From: Kyrpidia spormannii
GTDB taxonomy: Bacteria; Bacillota; Bacilli; Kyrpidiales; Kyrpidiaceae
DNA: 64,000 bases
Direction: 5' to 3'
NCBI RefSeq assembly: GCF_002804065.1
Contig: NZ_CP024955.1
Coordinates: 620,001 to 684,000, forward strand
Shown here: positions 27,096 to 54,768 of the stretch, piece by piece
How the letters are laid out: each line of letters starts with the position of its first letter
How positions within the stretch are numbered: the first letter of the stretch is position 1
Position numbers and translations under genes: made by a program
Notes under the pieces: generated by a model
What the model was told of the DNA's origin: nothing
The model's database searches: none
Seen by the model: only the letters and a program-made list of their open reading frames with translations

Positions 27096-28058
27096 ATGGA
27101 ATACCGAAGGCTGGGGAAGAGTGGGCTCAAAGTTTCGGCGATTGCCCTGGGAAGCTGGCTGACCTATGGGACCGTGACTGAAGAGCGGACAGCCGAGGCC
27201 TGTGTACATAAAGCTTTTGAGTTGGGGATTAACCATTTTGACTGCGCCAATGTGTACGGGGCGGAACCCCATGCCGCCGAGCGGGTGCTGGGCCGGGCCC
27301 TGCGGGAGTACCCCCGGGAGAGCTATGTGGTGACGACGAAGGCCTTTTGGCCGGTGGGAGCCGGACCCAATGATCGAGGACTCAGCCGTAAACACATCAT
27401 CGACGAGGTGGAGAAAAGTTTGACCGCCCTTGGGGTGGATTATGTGGATATTTTCTATTGCCACCGGTTTGACCCGGAGACAGAGTTGGAGGAGACCCTC
27501 CGGGCCATCGATGATCTGATCACCCAGGGGAAGATTTTGTACGCCGGGTTCAGTGAATGGTCGCCGGTGCAAATTGCCGATGGGGTGCGTCTGCAGAAGG
27601 AGTTGGGGTTGCACCGGTTTGTGGCGAGCCAGCCGCTGTACAATATGCTCAATCGCGGCATCGAGGCCGAGGTGATCCCCTTGTGCGCCCGGGAGGGAAT
27701 CGGCCAGGTGGTGTTTTCGCCCCTTGGGCAAGGGGTCCTCACGGGCAAATACCGCCCGGGCGAGCGGCCGCCGGCGGGCAGCCGGGGGGCCACGCCGGAG
27801 GTGCAGGCCTTTATGCGCCGATACCTGCAACCGGAAATCTTGCAAAAGGTGGAGGAGCTGGCGGCCGTCGCCCGCCGGTACGACCTGACTTTGGCGCGGA
27901 TGGCGTTGGCGTGGGTGTTGCGGCTGCCGGAAGTGTCCAGCGCTTTGGTGGGGGCTTCCCGGCCCGAGCAGGTGGAGGAAAATGTCAAGGCCGCGGGGGT
28001 GGTGCTGCCCGAGGAAGCGCTGCGGGAGATCGACCGCATCTTGGGAGTGGCGGAATGA
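27096..28058 (+). CDS. Aldo/keto reductase, voltage-gated K+ channel beta-subunit-like
   Basis: The 320-residue enzyme starts EYRRLGKSGLKVSAIALG, typical of the AKR6/AKR14 group. The tetrad is visible: aspartate and tyrosine in FDCANVYG, lysine in VVTTKAFWP and histidine in DIFYCHRFDP. A cofactor loop SSALVGASRPEQVEENVKA lies near the C-terminus. It probably reduces aldehydes or sugars with NADPH. ATG 27096 follows GAGGGGGC. The strong terminator in its leader suggests either weak readthrough from the upstream pair or a separate promoter. Confidence 0.88.
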   Translation: MEYRRLGKSGLKVSAIALGSWLTYGTVTEERTAEACVHKAFELGINHFDCANVYGAEPHAAERVLGRALREYPRESYVVTTKAFWPVGAGPNDRGLSRKHIIDEVEKSLTALGVDYVDIFYCHRFDPETELEETLRAIDDLITQGKILYAGFSEWSPVQIADGVRLQKELGLHRFVASQPLYNMLNRGIEAEVIPLCAREGIGQVVFSPLGQGVLTGKYRPGERPPAGSRGATPEVQAFMRRYLQPEILQKVEELAAVARRYDLTLARMALAWVLRLPEVSSALVGASRPEQVEENVKAAGVVLPEEALREIDRILGVAE

Positions 28059-28069
28059 CAGGGCCTGGC

Positions 28070-28096
28070 GCCGGCGGTCGGGAGGCGGCCGCCGGC
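28070..28096. repeat. GC-rich hairpin between converging transcripts
   Basis: GCCGGCGG (28070-28077) and CCGCCGGC (28089-28096) form an 8-bp perfect stem just after the aldo/keto reductase. It has no T-tract and could act as a weak terminator for either strand. Confidence 0.35.
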
Positions 28097-28123
28097 CTGG
28101 AGACCAAGGGCCGACGGGAGGCG

Positions 28124-28219
28124 TCAAGATGGATCCGACTTAGTCCCGGCGGCGCGGGGTCCGATGTCGGGAGACGGTTTTTGCTGCGGGGTCGGCCGTT
28201 GGTTTTCCTTTTGCCCCAT
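28124..28219 (-). CDS. Possible 31-residue hydrophilic protein
   Basis: ATG 28219 (or an overlapping frame from ATG 28224) follows GAGGAGG on the minus strand. An extended -10 (TGCTACAAT, minus strand, about 28261-28269) lies about 40 bp upstream. The peptide is rich in Pro, Gln, Lys and Asp, starts MGQKENQRP and looks unstructured. Short proteins of this kind occur as minor spore proteins in Firmicutes, but I cannot assign it. It diverges from the sucrose operon. The signals are good and the coding evidence is weak. Confidence 0.35.
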   Translation of the reverse strand: MGQKENQRPTPQQKPSPDIGPRAAGTKSDPS

Positions 28220-28315
28220 AACATCGCACACCTCCTCTGCCTGGCGATTTTTTCGATGTCCATTGTAGCACATCCTTTCCACCTCATATCGATAGACGGC
28301 CCGAATCGGGTCGAA

Positions 28316-28353
28316 TTGACATCCAGACAACTCATGTATAAAATTAAGTTGTC
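28316..28353 (+). promoter_or_regulatory. Promoter and operator dyad of the sucrose-synthesis operon
   Basis: TTGACA (28316-28321) and TAAAAT (28339-28344) are 17 bp apart, an almost ideal sigma-A promoter. GACAACT (28326-28332) and AGTTGTC (28347-28353) form a perfect 7-bp dyad that straddles the -10 box. A GntR-type dimer bound here would block transcription. The BusR-like gene at 30499 is the best candidate regulator, which is inference. Confidence 0.65.
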
Positions 28354-28378
28354 GGAAGGTCTTTGAGGGGGTGGAAGG

Positions 28379-29647
28379 ATGGGGCTTCGCGTCTGCATGA
28401 TTTCGGATCACGGCGATCCTCTGGCGACACTTGGGGATACCCAAAGTGGCGGGCAGAATCAGTACGTGTACCAGCTTAGTCTCCACCTGGATCGCCTTGG
28501 GCATCAAGTGGATGTCTACACCCACTGGTCCCGGGAGGATGCGCCGGAGGTAGAAGCCTTTGGGGATTGCGCCCGGGTGATCCGGGTGGCGGCCGGGAAG
28601 CGGGGCCATCTCCCGAAAGATGACCTCTATGAGCGGCTAGATCTTTTTTATCATGAATTATCGGCGAAGATCGCCACTTGTGGGCCGTATGATCTGGTCC
28701 ACGCCCACTACTGGATGTCGGGCACCCTAGGGCGCGTTCTGCGCCGGGAGTTGAACTATCCGCTCATTTACACGCCGCATTCCCTGGGTATGGTAAAAGG
28801 GCTTCGGACGGGCAGTTGGGACTGGGAGAGGCTCTGGAAAGAACGGTCGATCTTGGTTGAGGCCGATCACGTCGTGGTGACCACCGAAACCGAGAGAGAG
28901 CATGCCAAGGAATTTTGCGGAAAAACGGCGACGGCGCCCATCAGTGTGATCCCGGCGGGGGTGGGGGAACATTTTATAGCCGATCCGAAAGCGGAGTCGG
29001 AAACGGATGATACGGCGGATCGGGACTGCGGGGTGCCCGTGGATCCAAATGGACATCGGCGGCCTTATGTGTTGTACGTCGGCCGATTGGCGATGGAGAA
29101 AGGTCTCGGTGTACTGTTGGACGCATACAGCATGTGGGTGGCCCGGAATCCCGATGTTCCGGATTTGTGGATTGCAGGTGGGGACCGGGAAGGCCGGGAG
29201 TGGCGGCGATGGACGGCGAGCCATGCCGCTCTTGGCGAACTGCTGACCACGATACCGGATCGCGTTCACTACCTCGGCCCGGTGGCGAACGAAAAATTGC
29301 CGCAGCTGTACCGGGGGGCGGAGATGGTGGTGGTGCCCTCCTGGTATGAATCCTTCGGTTTGGTGGCGGCAGAAGCCATGGCGGCGGGGGGTGTCGTGAT
29401 CGCTTCCGGGGTTGGAGGTCTCCGCCATATCGTTCAGGATGGGGTCACAGGCCGGCTGGTCCCGCCCCGGGACTCCGGGGCATTGGTCAAAGCCATGGAC
29501 GAAATGTGGGTGAGTCCGTCTCTTCGAAACGCCTTCCGCAGAAAGGGGACTAGGGATGCCCGGCGAAGGTTTTTCTGGCCGAACATCGCTCCGCAAGTGG
29601 TGGAAGTCTATCTGGGCTACGTCAAACAGCCCGTCGTCCTCCCCTGA
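28379..29647 (+). CDS. GT4 glycosyltransferase, probable sucrose-phosphate synthase
   Basis: The 422-residue GT-B enzyme has an N-terminal acceptor domain with DTQSGGQNQYVYQL, like the GGQVKYVVEL loop of sucrose-phosphate synthases. The C-terminal donor domain shows LYVGRLAMEKGLGVLLDAY and the E-x7-E motif ESFGLVAAEAMAAGG (about 323-337). It should join glucose from UDP- or ADP-glucose to fructose-6-phosphate. Its immediate neighbour is a sucrose-phosphate-phosphatase-like HAD protein, which is the main reason for this call. Other GT4 products such as mannosyl- or glucosyl-glycerate cannot be excluded. ATG 28379 follows GGGGTGGAAGG. Confidence 0.75.
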   Translation: MGLRVCMISDHGDPLATLGDTQSGGQNQYVYQLSLHLDRLGHQVDVYTHWSREDAPEVEAFGDCARVIRVAAGKRGHLPKDDLYERLDLFYHELSAKIATCGPYDLVHAHYWMSGTLGRVLRRELNYPLIYTPHSLGMVKGLRTGSWDWERLWKERSILVEADHVVVTTETEREHAKEFCGKTATAPISVIPAGVGEHFIADPKAESETDDTADRDCGVPVDPNGHRRPYVLYVGRLAMEKGLGVLLDAYSMWVARNPDVPDLWIAGGDREGREWRRWTASHAALGELLTTIPDRVHYLGPVANEKLPQLYRGAEMVVVPSWYESFGLVAAEAMAAGGVVIASGVGGLRHIVQDGVTGRLVPPRDSGALVKAMDEMWVSPSLRNAFRRKGTRDARRRFFWPNIAPQVVEVYLGYVKQPVVLP

Positions 29648-29663
29648 ACAGCCTCGGGTGGAG

Positions 29664-30464
29664 ATGGGGATTGTTACTGATTTGGATGACACGTTACTCG
29701 GTTCCTCGGAGTGTTTGTCCGCCTTTTTGCGCTGGCGGGAAGGGCGGCCGCAATGGGGACTGGCCTATGCCACCGGCCGTTACCTGGACTCGGCGCTGCA
29801 CGTGATGCGGGAAGCGGGGCTGCCACGGCCAGAGGCATTGATTACCGACGTGGGGAGTCGGATCTTTTTCCCCGTTTCAGGTTTTCCCGGCGGAGGTTCG
29901 GGCCGGGAGACGGCGGGGGGCGAGGGTTCGCCGGTTTCCGGGACGGAGTGGGAAGAAGATTTGAGGTGGTGGAGCCGGGCCTTGGCAACCTGGCGTCCGG
30001 TGGAGGTGGTCCGGGCCCTGAAAAGAGTCCCGGGCTTTTCTGTGGACGCGGTGGACGGGGAAGATCCCCGGGGGCCGAAAGGGCGAATCAGCGGCAGGTG
30101 GGATGGAGATCCAGGCGTTGTCGCCAGGGTCGAGCAAGCACTGAAAGAGGCCGGTTTACCGACCCGGGTGGTGGTCAGCCGGGGGCGGCTCGACGTGATT
30201 CCGGCCTCGGGGGGGAAAGGGGCGGCGGCCCGGTACGCCGTGGCCCGGCTGGGTTGGCGGAAGGTCCTCGCCTGTGGGGACAACGGAAACGACCGGGACC
30301 TGCTTCTGGCCGGCTTTCCCGCTGTGCTGGTCGGAAACGCCGATAAGGGGATGCGGGAAGAACGTTGGCCGCCCCGGGTATACATCGCCTCGAAACCTTA
30401 CGCCTGTGGTATACTCCAAGGATGGGAGCATTGGTATGGGGGTCCGAACATCGACGGGCCCTGA
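29664..30464 (+). CDS. HAD phosphatase, sucrose-phosphate phosphatase-like
   Basis: The protein is about 266 residues. Its first motif is TDLDDTLLGS (nucleophile aspartate), with ATGRYLDS, ITDVGSRIFF, a lysine in PASGGKGAAARYA and CGDNGNDRDLLL. These match the HAD-IIB sucrose-phosphate phosphatase (S6PP) family. It should remove phosphate from the product of the upstream glycosyltransferase. An open frame continues upstream to ATG 29556 with an AAAGGGGAC site, inside the glycosyltransferase gene; ATG 29664 gives the normal S6PP start and is preferred. Confidence 0.78.
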   Translation: MGIVTDLDDTLLGSSECLSAFLRWREGRPQWGLAYATGRYLDSALHVMREAGLPRPEALITDVGSRIFFPVSGFPGGGSGRETAGGEGSPVSGTEWEEDLRWWSRALATWRPVEVVRALKRVPGFSVDAVDGEDPRGPKGRISGRWDGDPGVVARVEQALKEAGLPTRVVVSRGRLDVIPASGGKGAAARYAVARLGWRKVLACGDNGNDRDLLLAGFPAVLVGNADKGMREERWPPRVYIASKPYACGILQGWEHWYGGPNIDGP

Positions 30465-30498
30465 CAGCCCCGGAAACTGTGCGAAGGAGTGCGTGGTT

Positions 30499-31134
30499 GT
30501 GGCTGGTCCCCATTCGGAGGGTCTTTCTCGCTATGAGCAGATCGCTGTGGATATTGCTCAAAAAATCGCGTCCCAGGAGTATACGGAAGGCATGAAGTTG
30601 CACGGTCGGTCCACCTTGGCCAGTCAGTACAACGTGTCGCCGGAAACGATTCGCAGGGCGATCTCCGTGCTTGATGCCGCGAAAGTGGTCCGGGTGCAAC
30701 CCGGCGTTGGAATCGTGGTATTGTCGAAACGGGCGGCTGAATTGTTCCTATCCCAGATGCATTTTAAGCGCACGCTGGAAGAGTTGCACCGCCGCCTCAC
30801 CGAATTGGTGGAAAAACGCCGGGTGATTGACAACGAGATCGACCAGGTGCTTCACGATATTCAGCATTCTTCTCACCGGTACGTGGTGTTGCACGATTTA
30901 CTTCACTGCGTGGCGATTCCCGAAGGTTCTCCGGTGATCGGAAAAACCCTGAGGGAACTCTCTTTTCGCAACGTGACCGGGGCGACGGTGGTATCCATCG
31001 AGCGGTCGGACCGGGCCATGAATCTCGCGGCCGGAGAGGCCCCCCTGTCCGCCGGGGATCTGCTTTGGCTCATTGCAGAACCCGGGTCTCTGGCCCAGGT
31101 GGAGCGGTTGTTGGGGAGCGGCCCCCAGATGTGA
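30499..31134 (+). CDS. BusR-like regulator: GntR-type HTH plus RCK_C (TrkA_C) domain
   Basis: From GTG 30499 (AAGGAG 9 nt upstream) the protein is 211 residues. It has a GntR winged helix (about 8-75; STLASQYNVSPETIRRAISVL is the recognition region), a coiled coil (about 85-118) and an RCK_C domain (about 130-205; the run GKTLRELSFRNVTGATVVSI is typical). This is the layout of BusR, which represses the glycine-betaine transporter genes of lactococci and streptococci and binds c-di-AMP through RCK_C. Here the gene follows sucrose-synthesis genes, so control of a different compatible solute is inferred. The next genes encode an ABC exporter, not an osmolyte importer. Confidence 0.8.
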   Translation: MAGPHSEGLSRYEQIAVDIAQKIASQEYTEGMKLHGRSTLASQYNVSPETIRRAISVLDAAKVVRVQPGVGIVVLSKRAAELFLSQMHFKRTLEELHRRLTELVEKRRVIDNEIDQVLHDIQHSSHRYVVLHDLLHCVAIPEGSPVIGKTLRELSFRNVTGATVVSIERSDRAMNLAAGEAPLSAGDLLWLIAEPGSLAQVERLLGSGPQM

Positions 31135-31150
31135 CAGGAGGGGTGCCTCA

Positions 31151-32149
31151 GTGTCGGCAGAAAGCAACCGAGGGCCCGGGGACCCGGCGGTGCGGGCCCG
31201 GGGACTTGTCAAGCAGTACGGCCATTTTCAGGCGGTCCGGGGGATTGATTTGCTCGTTCGGCGCGGCGAGTGTTTCGGGGTGCTCGGCCCCAATGGGGCG
31301 GGGAAATCCACGACGATGAAGATGATTTACGGTCGCACGCCCCTCAGCGCCGGGGAACTCTTTGTGCTGGGGATGGATGTCCGCACGGAGATGCGGCGGA
31401 TCAAAGCCCGGATCGGCGTGGTTCCCCAGGAGGATAATCTGGATCCTGATTTCACGGTGATCCGGAACCTGCTCGTGTTTGCCCGGTATTTTGACCTGTC
31501 CCGGAGAATTGCCCGGGAACGGGCCGAGCAGCTGCTGGATTTTGTCGGTTTGGCGGAGCGGCGGGATTCCCGGGTGGACAGTCTCTCCGGGGGGATGAAA
31601 CGCCGGCTGGTTATCGCCCGGGCCTTGATCAACGACCCGGAGCTCTTGATTCTGGACGAACCCACCACCGGGCTGGATCCCCAAGCCCGGCAGCTGGTGT
31701 GGAGCAAGATGCGGGAACTGCGAACCCGGGGGGTCACGCTGCTCCTGACCACCCATTACATGGAAGAAGCCGCCCGGTTGTGCGACCGACTCGTCATCAT
31801 GGACGGGGGACGCATTCTGGCCGAGGGATCGCCCCAGGGTCTGATTGAAGCTCACGCCGGGCCCTGGACGGCAGAGGTGATGCTACCTCCGGCACAGCAC
31901 CAAGAGGCGCTGAGGCGGTTAGAAGTCGACACGGCTGCCGGGGTCGGTCAAATCGGGAATCAAGGGATTCGCGGGTGGGAGTCGGCGGAAGATCGATTGT
32001 TGCTTTATACAGAGTCCGTCGAGGAGGCCACTGCAGCCTGCGAGCGTTTGAAGGCTATGGGACTTGGCGGGGCGGGCTTTTTCTCCAGGCCCACGACTTT
32101 GGACGATTTATTCCTGCGACTCACCGGGCGGACCCTCCGGGAGGCATGA
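31151..32149 (+). CDS. ABC transporter ATP-binding protein (ABC-2 type exporter, NodI/DrrA-like)
   Basis: The 332-residue ATPase has Walker A GPNGAGKSTT (about 47-56), a Q-loop PQEDN, the signature LSGGMKRRL, Walker B LLILDEPTTGLD and the H-loop TTHYMEEA. A C-terminal extension (about 240-330) is typical of drug/polysaccharide exporters. GTG 31151 follows CAGGAGGGG; the longer frame from 31073 overlaps the regulator gene. With the permease 1 bp downstream it forms a two-component exporter of unknown substrate. Confidence 0.9.
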   Translation: MSAESNRGPGDPAVRARGLVKQYGHFQAVRGIDLLVRRGECFGVLGPNGAGKSTTMKMIYGRTPLSAGELFVLGMDVRTEMRRIKARIGVVPQEDNLDPDFTVIRNLLVFARYFDLSRRIARERAEQLLDFVGLAERRDSRVDSLSGGMKRRLVIARALINDPELLILDEPTTGLDPQARQLVWSKMRELRTRGVTLLLTTHYMEEAARLCDRLVIMDGGRILAEGSPQGLIEAHAGPWTAEVMLPPAQHQEALRRLEVDTAAGVGQIGNQGIRGWESAEDRLLLYTESVEEATAACERLKAMGLGGAGFFSRPTTLDDLFLRLTGRTLREA

Positions 32150-32150
32150 G

Positions 32151-32912
32151 ATGAGCGCGCGGGCGGTATGGGCGGTGTTCGCCCGAAATATGGATGTGTT
32201 TCGTCGCTACTGGTTGAACAACCTTGTGTCGAATTTTTTTGAACCCTTTTTGTATCTTTTGGGAATGGGTGTGGGGATGACTCGCTATGTGGGCGGGATC
32301 GATGGCGTTTCGTACACTGCCTTTATCGCTCCGGGGATTGTGGCGTCCACGGCCATGTTTGCGGCGACTTTCGAATCGACCTATGGAACTTTTGTCCGCA
32401 TGGAGTTTCAGAAGACTTTCGATGCCATGATTGCGACCCCGGTGAACGTGGAGGAAGTGGCGGTCGGGGAACTGGTTTATGGGGCAGTCAAAGCGGCCAT
32501 CGTCGGGGTGATCATCCTGGCGGTGGTGGAGGTGTTCGGGTTTGTGCCGGGGTGGCATTACTCCGCCCTCCTGGTTCCGCCCGCGGCTCTGCTCGTGGGG
32601 TTGGTTTTTTCGGCCCTGGCCATGACCGCTTCCACCCTCGTCCCTCAAATCGATCATTTTAATTACTACATCACGTTGTTGATCACTCCAATGTTTGTGT
32701 TTTCCGGGATCTTCTTCCCTTTGGAGGGATTGCCTTCCGCGGTGCAGGCGGTGGCGTGGTTTACACCCCTGATGCATGGGGTGCGCATGAGCCGGGAGTT
32801 GATCTTCGGCACGTGGACTCATGTCTGGGCGGATGCGCTGTGGTTGGCCGTGGCGGCCGCAGCCCTTTCATGGCTGCCCGTGATCTTGTTGCGTCGGCGA
32901 TTGATTCGGTAG
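32151..32912 (+). CDS. ABC-2 type permease (NodJ/DrrB-like)
   Basis: The 253-residue membrane protein has six predicted spans and the ABC-2 signature near the C-terminus (PMFVFSGIFFPLEGLPSAVQAVAWFTPLMHGV pattern, about 186-217). It pairs with the ATPase upstream, whose stop codon lies 1 bp before this ATG, so translation is probably coupled. The long N-terminal helix NFFEPFLYLLGMGVG matches NodJ-type exporters. Substrate unknown. Confidence 0.88.
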   Translation: MSARAVWAVFARNMDVFRRYWLNNLVSNFFEPFLYLLGMGVGMTRYVGGIDGVSYTAFIAPGIVASTAMFAATFESTYGTFVRMEFQKTFDAMIATPVNVEEVAVGELVYGAVKAAIVGVIILAVVEVFGFVPGWHYSALLVPPAALLVGLVFSALAMTASTLVPQIDHFNYYITLLITPMFVFSGIFFPLEGLPSAVQAVAWFTPLMHGVRMSRELIFGTWTHVWADALWLAVAAAALSWLPVILLRRRLIR

Positions 32913-32925
32913 GGGAGGTGAAGGG

Positions 32926-33756
32926 ATGCCGGACATTCGGATGATCGTGTATGACCTGGACGGGACTTTGTATCGGGATCGGAGACATTTTCGCCGTTAT
33001 TGCGAACTTCTGGCCGCCGGAGCCCCCCGACTGAGAGCGTTTGAACGGGATTGGGAAGAGATTGAAGAGGAACGCCACCCTCTGCGGGTGGGGATGTTTT
33101 TCAACGGCAGAACGGGGCAGATCTGCGGCCCGAAGGGTTTAATGACCTGGGAGGGGGAGGTGGTACAGGCGGGGTCAGCCTTTTATGATGATCTGGTGAA
33201 CGACGTGGAACAAGAACGGGACCTGGGGGATTGGTTGTACATCGGCGACCTTTGGTGGTCGATGATCGCCCTGGCGGCGTGGCACCGGGTGCCGCCCGAG
33301 CGGCTGAGGGAAAGCTTCCTGGCTACCCGGGCGTATATGATGGAGGATACGGTGCCGCTCAGGACAGTGCCCGGTCTGAGGGAGTTCATCCAAGCTCGCA
33401 ACCGGGAAGGGGTGGTGCAGATCCTGGCCACGAACAGCCCGGAACCGGATAGCTGGGCGATCATTGGAAAACTCGGCTTGAAAGGTCTGTTTCAGGTTTG
33501 CTCCTTTGTCACGGGCAAACCTGCCGGATTGCTCCCCCGGTTGCGGGAGTGGGCGGCCAAATTTGGCGTTTCCCTCGACGAGGTGCTCATGGTGGGCGAC
33601 AACTACCGGAATGATGTGGTGCCGGCCCGGCGCGGGGGATGCCGGACCTTTTTTCTGGACCCGCACCGGGTGCCCCACCCGGTGCACGCCACGTACCACG
33701 AGAGACGGATCGAGTCCCTGTTCGTTCACTGGAATTCTCCTCAGAACTCCCGTTGA
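32926..33756 (+). CDS. HAD-superfamily hydrolase
   Basis: The 276-residue protein starts with VYDLDGTLYRD, the HAD nucleophile motif. Motif II ILATNSPEPDSW is in the middle, and the C-terminal motif VLMVGDNYRNDVVPARRGG (about 219-237) holds the magnesium-binding aspartates. A large insert (about 35-115) is the likely cap that sets the substrate. It may dephosphorylate a metabolite, but none can be named. It follows the exporter by 13 bp and converges exactly on the amidohydrolase gene with no space between stop codons. Confidence 0.8.
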   Translation: MPDIRMIVYDLDGTLYRDRRHFRRYCELLAAGAPRLRAFERDWEEIEEERHPLRVGMFFNGRTGQICGPKGLMTWEGEVVQAGSAFYDDLVNDVEQERDLGDWLYIGDLWWSMIALAAWHRVPPERLRESFLATRAYMMEDTVPLRTVPGLREFIQARNREGVVQILATNSPEPDSWAIIGKLGLKGLFQVCSFVTGKPAGLLPRLREWAAKFGVSLDEVLMVGDNYRNDVVPARRGGCRTFFLDPHRVPHPVHATYHERRIESLFVHWNSPQNSR

Positions 33757-47687: not shown

Positions 47688-48837
47688 GTGTCCTTTCAGG
47701 CAATGTAGTTGGATAAATCGGAAGGAATGTCCAGTTGTCTGTCGAATGATCATCCCAGGTGGTGATCATCATGTGCATCTTTGTCCGAGACCTGACACCT
47801 GAAGAGGGCAACAAACTTGTGAAGATTGCTCGCAAAGGATCCAACCCCGTTGAAGTGCGACGGGCTTTAGCCGTGTTGGCTTCCGCTCAAAAGATGAAGG
47901 TGCCGGAGATCTCCGAGTTGTATCACCTCTCTCAGGAGCACATTCGTCATATTATTCATGCCTTCAATCAGCATGGATTCGAGGCCTTAAAGCCTCGGTA
48001 CAAGGGCGGACGACCGCGGACCTTTACCGAAGAACAAAGAGCCGCGATCATTGAGTTGGCCCAGATCCCGCCAAACACCCTGGGTTTGCCCTTTACCCAT
48101 TGGTCACTGTCCAAGCTCAAAGAGGAGGCCGAAAGGCGGGGCATCGTGACCTCTATTAGCATTGAGACTATCCGTGTCATTCTGGAGGAAGCCGACATCA
48201 CCTACTAGCACACCAAGACATGGAAAGCCTCGAATGATCCTGACTTTGAGGTAAAAAAAACGAATCCAGTCGCTCTACCGGAATCCGCCCAAAGACGGAC
48301 GGGTCATCTGCGTTGACGAGTTTGGACCGTTGTCCATTCAGCCGTTTTCCGGTTGCGGATGGTACCCGAAAAGTCGGCCCGATCGATTGCCGGCAACGTA
48401 CCGCCGCACCCACGGGGTGAGGCACTTGTTTGCGGCTCTAGATCTGAAAGCGGATAAACTGTACGGGCACGTCTCATCCAGCAAGAAGCACCAGGATATT
48501 CTGCGTTTTCTCAAGGTGCTCCGCCGGCGGTATCACCGGTCTGAACGGCTGTACGTGGTCTTGGACAATTTTTCACCTCACAAGCATCGTACTGTGACTG
48601 AGTGGGCTGCAGAAAACAATGTAGAACTGGTTTTTACACCGACCCAGGCGTCATGGTTGAACCGAATCGAATGCCATTTTGCGCCGTTACGATCGTTTGT
48701 GTTGCGTGGGAGTCACTATCCAAATCACGAGGCGTTGGCCACAGCGATCCGGTCGTACCTGCGTTGGCGAAACAAGCACACCGCCATGCCAGACTTCTAC
48801 GTGAGCAAAAGAAGATCAAGGTTCTCTGAAGGGGCAC
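47688..48837 (+). mobile_element. IS630-family insertion sequence, copy 1
   Basis: A 1150-bp element with 12-bp inverted ends (GTGYCCYTTCAG) flanked by TA on each side (47686-47687 and 48838-48839), as expected for IS630/Tc1-type transposition. It is essentially identical to copy 2 apart from base 4 of the outer end. Confidence 0.9.
47771..48837 (+). pseudogene. IS630 transposase, split by an amber stop and a frameshift (copy 1)
   Basis: The first part (47771-48208) holds the helix-turn-helix DNA-binding domain (VPEISELYHLSQEHIRHII) and linker. It ends at TAG 48206-48208 where the homologous frame continues with HTKTWKASNDPDFEV. A run of eight As (48253-48260) then shifts the frame. The second part (48261 onward) has the DDE catalytic core: aspartates in VICVDEFG and VVLDNFSPHK and glutamate in WLNRIECHF. 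The frame runs past the element's end with no stop inside. ATG 47771 follows AGGTGG. Copy 2 carries the same lesions. Confidence 0.85.
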
Positions 48838-48933
48838 TAGTTTGACCCAGCGGTTCTCTTTATTCAATTTCCCGCCGAACGGAAGGAAAAAGTCATCGGG
48901 CAACAGAATCTGACGCTCAGTCGCTCGGTACAC
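48838..48933 (-). pseudogene. N-terminal fragment of an IS4/IS5-type transposase
   Basis: From a GTG at 48933 (GAGGTG upstream) the frame reads YRATERQILLPDDFFLPFG and then GKLNKENRWVKL, the opening of a DDE transposase of the IS4/IS5 group. It is cut off at the TA where IS630 copy 1 begins. The rest of the gene is absent here. Confidence 0.6.
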
Positions 48934-53293: not shown

Positions 53294-53618
53294 GTGCCTA
53301 GCAAAGCTAGGCACAACTTGCCGGTGCAAGTCCGGCCGAGGTAGGGGCCAGATCGCCTCGTAGCTAGCAGGCATCTGGTGGTGAGAGCCTAAGGGTGAAG
53401 CCCTGCGAAAAGCCCGGATGGGTGAAGCAAAACTGCAGGCCGTAACATGAAGTGAATCCCGCCGCATCGTTAATTTAGACCCGAAAAGGACAAGAGGAAG
53501 CCGAGCCGCGTGTGCACCGGCGAAGGCCATGGAACGTGTGAAGAATCTGGAAGGGCAGCACGGAAGAATCCTCCGGTGTAGAGGGAGCGGTATGTAGTGA
53601 CAGTTGTGCCTGGAACTA
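53294..53618 (+). mobile_element. Second group II intron, 5' fragment
   Basis: The sequence begins GTGCCTAGC and carries pieces typical of a widespread bacterial group II intron: GCCGGTGCAAGTCCGGC, GGTGGTGAGAGCCTAAGGG, CTGCAGGCCGTAAC and GACAGTTGTGCCTGGAAC. It differs from the group IIC intron that surrounds the composite element. It is inserted in a transposase gene and is itself cut at TA (53617-53618) by IS630 copy 2. The reverse transcriptase and 3' domains are absent. Confidence 0.7.
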
Positions 53619-54685
53619 GTGCCCCTTCAGAGAACCTTGATCTTCTTTTGCTCACGTAGAAGTCTGGCATGGCGGTGTGCTTGTTTCGCCAACGCAGGTA
53701 CGACCGGATCGCTGTGGCCAACGCCTCGTGATTTGGATAGTGACTCCCACGCAACACAAACGATCGTAACGGCGCAAAATGGCATTCGATTCGGTTCAAC
53801 CATGACGCCTGGGTCGGTGTAAAAACCAGTTCTACATTGTTTTCTGCAGCCCACTCAGTCACAGTACGATGCTTGTGAGGTGAAAAATTGTCCAAGACCA
53901 CGTACAGCCGTTCAGACCGGTGATACCGCCGGCGGAGCACCTTGAGAAAACGCAGAATATCCTGGTGCTTCTTGCTGGATGAGACGTGCCCGTACAGTTT
54001 ATCCGCTTTCAGATCTAGAGCCGCAAACAAGTGCCTCACCCCGTGGGTGCGGCGGTACGTTGCCGGCAATCGATCGGGCCGACTTTTCGGGTACCATCCG
54101 CAACCGGAAAACGGCTGAATGGACAACGGTCCAAACTCGTCAACGCAGATGACCCGTCCGTCTTTGGGCGGATTCCGGTAGAGCGACTGGATTCGTTTTT
54201 TTTACCTCAAAGTCAGGATCATTCGAGGCTTTCCATGTCTTGGTGTGCTAGTAGGTGATGTCGGCTTCCTCCAGAATGACACGGATAGTCTCAATGCTAA
54301 TAGAGGTCACGATGCCCCGCCTTTCGGCCTCCTCTTTGAGCTTGGACAGTGACCAATGGGTAAAGGGCAAACCCAGGGTGTTTGGCGGGATCTGGGCCAA
54401 CTCAATGATCGCGGCTCTTTGTTCTTCGGTAAAGGTCCGCGGTCGTCCGCCCTTGTACCGAGGCTTTAAGGCCTCGAATCCATGCTGATTGAAGGCATGA
54501 ATAATATGACGAATGTGCTCCTGAGAGAGGTGATACAACTCGGAGATCTCCGGCACCTTCATCTTTTGAGCGGAAGCCAACACGGCTAAAGCCCGTCGCA
54601 CTTCAACGGGGTTGGATCCTTTGCGAGCAATCTTCACAAGTTTGTTGCCCTCTTCAGGTGTCAGGTCTCGGACAAAGATGCACAT
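53619..54685 (-). pseudogene. IS630 transposase, split by an amber stop and a frameshift (copy 2)
   Basis: Carries the same TAG (complement at 54248-54250) and the same run of eight As (complement 54196-54203) as copy 1. The DNA-binding part is read from 54685 and the DDE core in the second frame. The catalytic frame runs out of the element into intron sequence. The identical lesions show that the element was copied after they arose. Confidence 0.85.
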
Positions 54686-54768
54686 GATGATCACCACCTG
54701 GGATGATCATTCGACAGACAACTGGACATTCCTTCCGATTTATCCAACTACATTGCCTGAAAGGGCAC
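53619..54768 (-). mobile_element. IS630-family insertion sequence, copy 2 (inverted)
   Basis: A 1150-bp inverted copy of the element at 47688-48837, with TA on both sides (53617-53618 and 54769-54770). Its inner end joins the second group II intron fragment and its outer end joins the group IIC intron. Confidence 0.9.

Follow-up and report, generated by a model that had tools for sequence, protein, structure and literature searches.

A predicted sucrose-synthesis operon of Kyrpidia spormannii with a putative BusR-type repressor and operator

Can a repressor of the kind that governs solute uptake in lactic acid bacteria also govern the making of a solute, and does it then read the same signal? 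A three-gene locus of Kyrpidia spormannii, a heat-loving soil bacterium, raises this question. Cyclic di-AMP (c-di-AMP) is a second messenger that sets K+ and osmolyte uptake. A first-pass annotation of the window (the whole 64,000-nucleotide stretch analyzed here, bases 620001 to 684000 of the 3.35-Mb single-contig genome, G000) had proposed a sucrose-synthesis operon with a BusR-like, possibly c-di-AMP-responsive regulator. Our analysis favors, at a probability of roughly 60%, a compatible-solute operon in which a GT4 glycosyltransferase and an HAD phosphatase make sucrose under a BusR-subfamily repressor acting on a GAC-N22-GTC dyad, the effector probably not being c-di-AMP bound in the BusR manner. 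The three genes lie in the same direction with short intergenic gaps, and a consensus promoter stands ahead of them. The argument rests on the following features.

28316 to 28344, plus strand: candidate sigma-70-type promoter by consensus match only (-35 TTGACA 28316-28321, 17-nt spacer, -10 TAAAAT 28339-28344)
28326 to 28353, no strand assigned: predicted operator, perfect 7-bp inverted repeat GACAACT-N14-AGTTGTC, equal to GAC-N22-GTC, enclosing the -10 box
28379 to 29647, plus strand: GT4 glycosyltransferase, sucrose-phosphate synthase (SPS)-like, 422 amino acids; best Protein Data Bank match Thermosynechococcus elongatus SPS (6kih), catalytic residues
29664 to 30464, plus strand: HAD phosphatase, sucrose-phosphate phosphatase (SPP)-like, 266 amino acids; PF05116 (S6PP), Synechocystis SPP (1s2o)
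30496 to 31134, plus strand: BusR-like regulator with GntR, coiled-coil, and RCK_C parts, 212 amino acids, GTG start assumed; BusR 7b5t (E 2.1e-22) and Foldseek
30532 to 30720, plus strand: winged helix-turn-helix (wHTH, GntR) domain, residues 13 to 75, by Pfam; BusR DNA-contact residues mostly kept
30910 to 31116, plus strand: RCK_C (TrkA_C) domain, residues 139 to 207, by Pfam
31024 to 31038, plus strand: replaced pocket loop Leu-Ala-Ala-Gly-Glu (Ser178-Pro-Gly-Pro-Phe182 in BusR), by alignment

The proposed gene content was borne out by Pfam (Glycos_transf_1 plus Glyco_transf_4 for the GT4, S6PP with E 9e-40 for the HAD protein, GntR plus TrkA_C for the regulator), by Protein Data Bank matches, and by gene layout. 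The promoter agrees with the consensus at 11 of 12 positions. The dyad that had been seen straddling the -10 box is indeed perfect: its half-sites (GACAACT, 28326-28332; AGTTGTC, 28347-28353) begin 4 bp past the -35 and end 9 bp past the -10 hexamer. A match to the spacing of BusR operators can now be added. Excerpts of the BusR paper PMC8517857 give GAC-N22-GTC as the motif, at an identical distance in all four experimentally determined sites, and report that spacing changes of +5 or -10 bp abolish binding. The predicted Kyrpidia operator has exactly this spacing. The perfect dyad occurs once in the 3.35-Mb genome at any spacing from N8 to N22, and the reversed control occurs 0 times.

Relatives were sampled through four Kyrpidiales genomes (Kyrpidia's own and G001, G002, and G003). 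Adjoining, co-directional GT4, SPP, and regulator genes together with the perfect dyad were found in all four, in answer to a check that the first-pass annotation had suggested. The 14-bp center of the dyad is the same in G003 and different in G002 and G001, where BLAST identity is 66 to 68% for the GT4, 57 to 67% for the SPP, and 85 to 91% for the regulator. The closest named relative found, Kyrpidia sp. Bu79, has a regulator 91% identical to ours. We left the weak one- and two-mismatch N14 sites of the own genome out of the regulon, since a repeated element accounts for several of them and controls gave comparable numbers (3 sites versus 11 in the control for G000, 10 versus 8 for G003, and 6 versus 2 for G001). 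An exact 1,151-bp inverted repeat with a transposase-like gene, IS630-like by eye, lies at 47692-48842 and 53614-54764 of the window, and its further genomic copies yield spurious two-mismatch operator matches. A one-mismatch site with an A/T-rich center at G000:C1:2560389-2560416 (L150, 1501-1528), also present in G003, follows closely on the end of an MscS-type channel gene and lies upstream of an amino-acid-type ABC importer gene; it is a candidate second target in the own genome.

The regulator was likewise found to be BusR-like in architecture, by Pfam, alignment with 7b5t, an AlphaFold2 model, and Foldseek. The model predicts a wHTH domain, a single 56-residue helix (residues 78 to 133), and RCK_C, and its top 13 Foldseek matches are all BusR chains. 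Global TM-scores to BusR reach only 0.35 to 0.57, and the isolated RCK_C domain of the model superposes at 1.4 Å root mean square deviation; the low global values are put down to domain orientation. The alignment with 7b5t runs through the coiled coil without an insertion or deletion, giving a ruler of BusR length. The BusR DNA-contact residues Y13, R38, R53, G70, and G72 are identical, K36 is replaced by H, and K54 is replaced by R. By domains, ruler length, DNA-contact residues, and predicted operator, the protein is classified from its sequence as a member of the BusR (GntR-RCK_C) subfamily.

From these elements we infer how the operon might work. The GT4 would most likely join NDP-glucose and fructose-6-phosphate to sucrose-6-phosphate, which the HAD protein would dephosphorylate to sucrose. 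The product of gene three would be a tetrameric GntR-RCK_C repressor; by binding the dyad across the -10 box it would silence the operon and thereby its own expression. Since the operator encloses the -10 box, repression would act by blocking RNA polymerase. Hyperosmotic stress or high ionic strength would release the repressor and turn sucrose synthesis on.

The same operator recurs beside other GntR-RCK_C genes. Fifty-nine regulator loci were compared, 30 from a named scan and 29 from a phylum sample; near-identical relatives are included, so these are not 59 independent cases. Fourteen loci carry a site with at most two mismatches, at N14 or N15, within 300 bp, whereas scrambled half-sites gave a mean of 0.35 and a maximum of 3. 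Perfect N14 sites lie downstream of the GntR-RCK_C gene and upstream of an Opu-type ATPase gene in L021, and about 31 bp downstream of the GntR-RCK_C gene in G038 (L083). A search of 398 genomes for the perfect dyad found 7 sites in 6 genomes, beside a GntR-RCK_C gene only in the own genome and in G038. In 8 of 18 loci whose open reading frames were judged by eye (L013, L016, L018, L021, L023, L027, L029, and L036), genes for an Opu-type ABC importer come after the regulator; the ancestral target of the family was therefore probably solute uptake, as in BusR. Other neighbors were also seen. A GntR-RCK_C gene stands just ahead of a TsaC-type gene in L008, L009, L011, and L012 (Peptococcaceae/Clostridia), and a K+/H+-antiporter-like gene precedes it in L009, all by eye. 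DapB-like genes adjoin the regulators in three lineages (L083 1777-2667, with Pfam for that locus; L020; L034). In L086 and L088 (G389 and G349, one genus, both carrying GntR-RCK_C), a citrate-synthase-like gene is preceded at about 100 bp by a perfect N14 dyad.

The operator recurs at predicted sucrose genes as well. That sucrose synthesis is uncommon in Firmicutes, as had been stated, agrees with an SPP match at E <= 1e-8 in 15 of the 398 sampled phylum genomes (31 at E <= 1e-3). The 14 SPP genomes other than the own one, less G165 (where the contig start cuts SPP) and G351 (whose 3.3-kb locus lacks a GT4), gave 12 non-Kyrpidiales SPS loci. Within 160 bp upstream of the SPS GT4, five of them have a site with at most two mismatches, numbering 0 in L092 (G114), 1 in L089 (G005), and 2 in L093 (G332), L094 (G250), and L096 (G031). 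For these five sites, at most 2 of 300 random windows and at most 2 of 500 shuffles were equally good. G250 and G031 belong to the same genus, so about four independent lineages besides Kyrpidiales are represented. A class-wide search around G031 found SPS in 4 of 20 genomes, all previously found, and no new SPS genome. The regulator gene is clustered with SPS in G114 (L092, 4571-5191), in G103 (regulator, Opu operon, SPS, and SPP, all on the same strand), and in G005, there in truncated form. SPS-SPP pairs directly follow Opu-type importer genes in G073 and G103, and in G031 and G250 they follow an MscS-type channel gene bearing its own two-mismatch N14 site. Regulator genes are present in 11 of the 15 SPP genomes versus 80 of the 383 others (Fisher P = 3e-5, phylogeny ignored). 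The truncated relative in G005 (L089, 7149-7544) is a 131-amino-acid GntR protein that ends before RCK_C and adjoins a serine-recombinase-like gene; the matching stretch contains 2 stops, and the gene may have decayed.

A chance dyad was rejected because the dyad is unique in the genome, its half-sites are invariant in Kyrpidiales, and its recurrence elsewhere exceeds controls. Several counts weigh against the sucrose-operon reading all the same. No operator with at most two mismatches precedes 7 of the 12 non-Kyrpidiales SPS loci (three mismatches in L097; at least five in L091, L095, L098, L099, L100, and L101, among which L099 and L100 are fused SPS-SPP loci with a distant GT4 and no operator). 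At 45 of the 59 regulator loci there is no N14 or N15 site with at most two mismatches, and of the 6 perfect sites outside the own genome, 5 have no GntR-RCK_C gene next to them. Elsewhere N15 is commoner than N14 (10 versus 4 loci), although BusR binding is spacing-sensitive at +5 and -10 bp; a shift of +1 lies outside the published tests. Among the remaining gaps from 6 to 24, inverted half-sites occurred once each at N7 and N11, 0 times at all others except 22, and at 22 in 7 of the 59 loci, an unexplained secondary count that perhaps reflects two overlapping operators. Finally, the top NCBIfam model of the GT4 is MshA (224 bits, below the cut-off of 462.5). Nevertheless, sucrose synthesis probably does come under BusR-type control, and does so repeatedly across Bacillota, because the predicted dyad is kept in 4 of 4 Kyrpidiales genomes and recurs beside GntR-RCK_C genes and upstream of SPS. 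A wider scheme, in which GACAACT-N14/15-AGTTGTC sites switch Opu importers, mechanosensitive channels, and sucrose synthesis jointly and the Kyrpidiales pocket has been rebuilt for a new effector, can be put forward tentatively.

The MshA score bears on an alternative in which the osmotic regulation is the same and the product is mannosylfructose, glucosylglycerate, or an MshA-like inositol glycoside. In the mannosylfructose system, an SPS-like enzyme works together with an SPP-like one, a pairing for which no confirming paper was found. Proven T. elongatus SPS (TeSPS) likewise ranks MshA first (285 bits), so this ranking does not discriminate, and an assignment as MshA on the score alone was rejected. 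The SPS model TIGR02472 does not discriminate either, since both the GT4 (113 of 576 bits) and the proven TeSPS fragment (145 bits) fall below its cut-off. TeSPS is the best solved relative (E 3.3e-58), with MshA next, and by BLAST score it is closer than MshA to 11 of 11 GT4s compared. With residue roles and numbers taken from excerpts of the TeSPS paper PMC7264703, catalytic His158 and Glu331 and donor-site Arg249, Lys254, and Glu339 are kept and are invariant in all 11 GT4s of the alignment. Gln51 and Ser159 are also kept where MshA has Met and Thr. As for the acceptor-phosphate residues, Arg178 is kept and Arg105 is Lys; Arg253 is Glu, Ala48 is Ser, and Pro332 is Ser, and MshA shares Lys105, Ser48, and Ser332. 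The partner phosphatase belongs to the S6PP family (PF05116, 137 bits versus a cut-off of 20.3), and its DxD, T, K, and GDxxND motifs align with Synechocystis SPP (E 3e-19). Taken together, the sequences make sucrose the best-supported product of the pair, and another glycoside appears improbable.

What the repressor senses is a separate matter. According to excerpts of PMC8517857, BusR contacts c-di-AMP through Ile153, Gly154, Asn157, Val158, Trp159, His160, Ala164, Thr165, Ile166, Gly180, and Pro181, and Trp159/Phe182 form its autoinhibition lock. The Kyrpidia regulator has L, R, S, F, R, N, A, T, and V at positions 153, 154, 157 to 160, and 164 to 166 and A, A, G, and E at 179 to 182, which leaves most contacts replaced and puts Arg and Glu in the place of the lock. 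None of the four Kyrpidiales regulators retains Trp159, His160, or the Ser-Pro loop; in place of that loop, all share Leu-Ala-Ala-Gly-Glu. Comparison with 58 distinct non-Kyrpidiales GntR-RCK_C sequences and with KtrA/KtrC chains (KtrA contacts being judged by sequence) revealed Ser178 in 56 and Pro179 in all 58, with Arg159 in 32 and Trp159 in 26; the aligned KtrA and KtrC chains also have Ser-Pro. The regulators of the SPS genomes G073, G103, G114, G226, G250, G031, G332, and G351 keep Ser-Pro, and a c-di-AMP output on sucrose is therefore more plausible there than in Kyrpidia.

Three accounts of the signal were weighed. A true sensor, in which c-di-AMP bound by RCK_C would promote attachment to the operator and so stop sucrose synthesis at high K+ and turgor, has BusR as its closest solved structures, the kept Ala164, Thr165, and hydrophobic residue 166, and Arg159, whose occurrence in KtrA/KtrC and in the 32 other proteins makes a KtrA-like binding mode possible. 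The genome also encodes two diadenylate cyclases: a CdaA-type one, with a CdaR-like gene next, and a DisA-type one after a RadA-like gene; with an own KtrA that keeps the Ser-Pro loop, these indicate that c-di-AMP signaling probably exists in Kyrpidia. The replacement of Gly154, Asn157, Trp159, His160, and Pro179 to Phe182 speaks against the sensor, the more so as Pro179 is lost only in the four Kyrpidiales sequences, and this account is unlikely; the Kyrpidia regulator may no longer read c-di-AMP, or may read it differently. A Rfam scan of 27500-33000 gave 0 matches and therefore no c-di-AMP riboswitch there. Direct sensing of cytoplasmic ionic strength or K+, with no nucleotide ligand and a merely structural RCK_C, would fit the ionic-strength dependence of BusR binding (Romeo 2007, as cited in excerpts of PMC10243994), the lost pocket loop, and the SPS-linked G005 protein that lacks RCK_C, though that gene is perhaps decayed. 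RCK_C, however, is under purifying selection in Kyrpidiales, like the wHTH domain (ratio of nonsynonymous to synonymous substitution rates, 0.06 and 0.076, for a range of 0.06 to 0.08), and the new loop is kept in all four, which suggests a specific role for RCK_C and leaves a purely structural part rather doubtful. The same ratios led us to reject the idea that the regulator is a decayed gene. Given the purifying selection, the domain is probably functional, through a changed ligand or a response to ionic strength, and either of these would probably replace c-di-AMP bound BusR-style as the Kyrpidiales effector. Hence the BusR-type regulator and operator pair on a sucrose operon stands from the first-pass annotation, by spacing, conservation, and recurrence, while c-di-AMP responsiveness is weakened by the replaced pocket and lock residues.

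Two further genes follow directly 3' of the regulator.

31151 to 32149, plus strand: ABC ATPase, a short gap after the regulator stop
32151 to 32912, plus strand: ABC-2 permease

With an HAD hydrolase gene they fill 31151-33756 with short gaps, and G001 shows the same gene succession. They may be an operon extension, possibly an exporter.

Kyrpidia and scattered relatives in the phylum appear to control sucrose synthesis by the kind of repressor that lactic acid bacteria use for solute uptake. Among the titles and abstract openings listed in searches of open-access papers, none described BusR-type or c-di-AMP control of sucrose synthesis, nor such control in Kyrpidia. The literature presents BusR as repressing the BusA importer, and excerpts of PMC8517857 state that its further targets are not experimentally characterized. 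A BusR-type operator on sucrose synthesis would thus extend BusR control from solute uptake to solute making and would account for how a cyanobacterial-type sucrose pathway is regulated in Bacillota. The Kyrpidiales regulators offer a test of what RCK_C senses after loss of the c-di-AMP pocket with the domain retained; if the reading is true, they exemplify natural re-specification of the ligand within a family of c-di-AMP receptors, with operator and ruler kept.

Among known systems, the enzymes resemble Tll1590 SPS of T. elongatus (6kih; PMC7264703, in excerpt) and Synechocystis SPP (1s2o) in keeping His158, Glu331, Glu339, Arg249, and Arg178 and in having a separate S6PP-family phosphatase. 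They differ in sequence (about 35 to 37% identity, with Lys for Arg105 and Glu for Arg253) and in lying under predicted BusR-type control in a Bacillota genome. Excerpts on Halothermothrix orenii SPS (PMC2626281) also propose sucrose as a compatible solute in a thermophilic Firmicute, and these passages mention no GntR-RCK_C regulator. The regulator shares with BusR of Streptococcus agalactiae and Lactococcus lactis (excerpts of PMC8517857, PMC5919688, and PMC6108528) the wHTH domain, the long coiled-coil helix, RCK_C, and, by prediction, a GAC-N22-GTC operator overlapping the promoter and an osmolyte target. Unlike BusR, which acts on glycine-betaine uptake, the Kyrpidia protein is predicted to act on solute synthesis through the adjoining SPS-SPP genes, is encoded by the last gene of the GT4-HAD-regulator set, and lacks both the c-di-AMP pocket and the Trp159/Phe182 lock.

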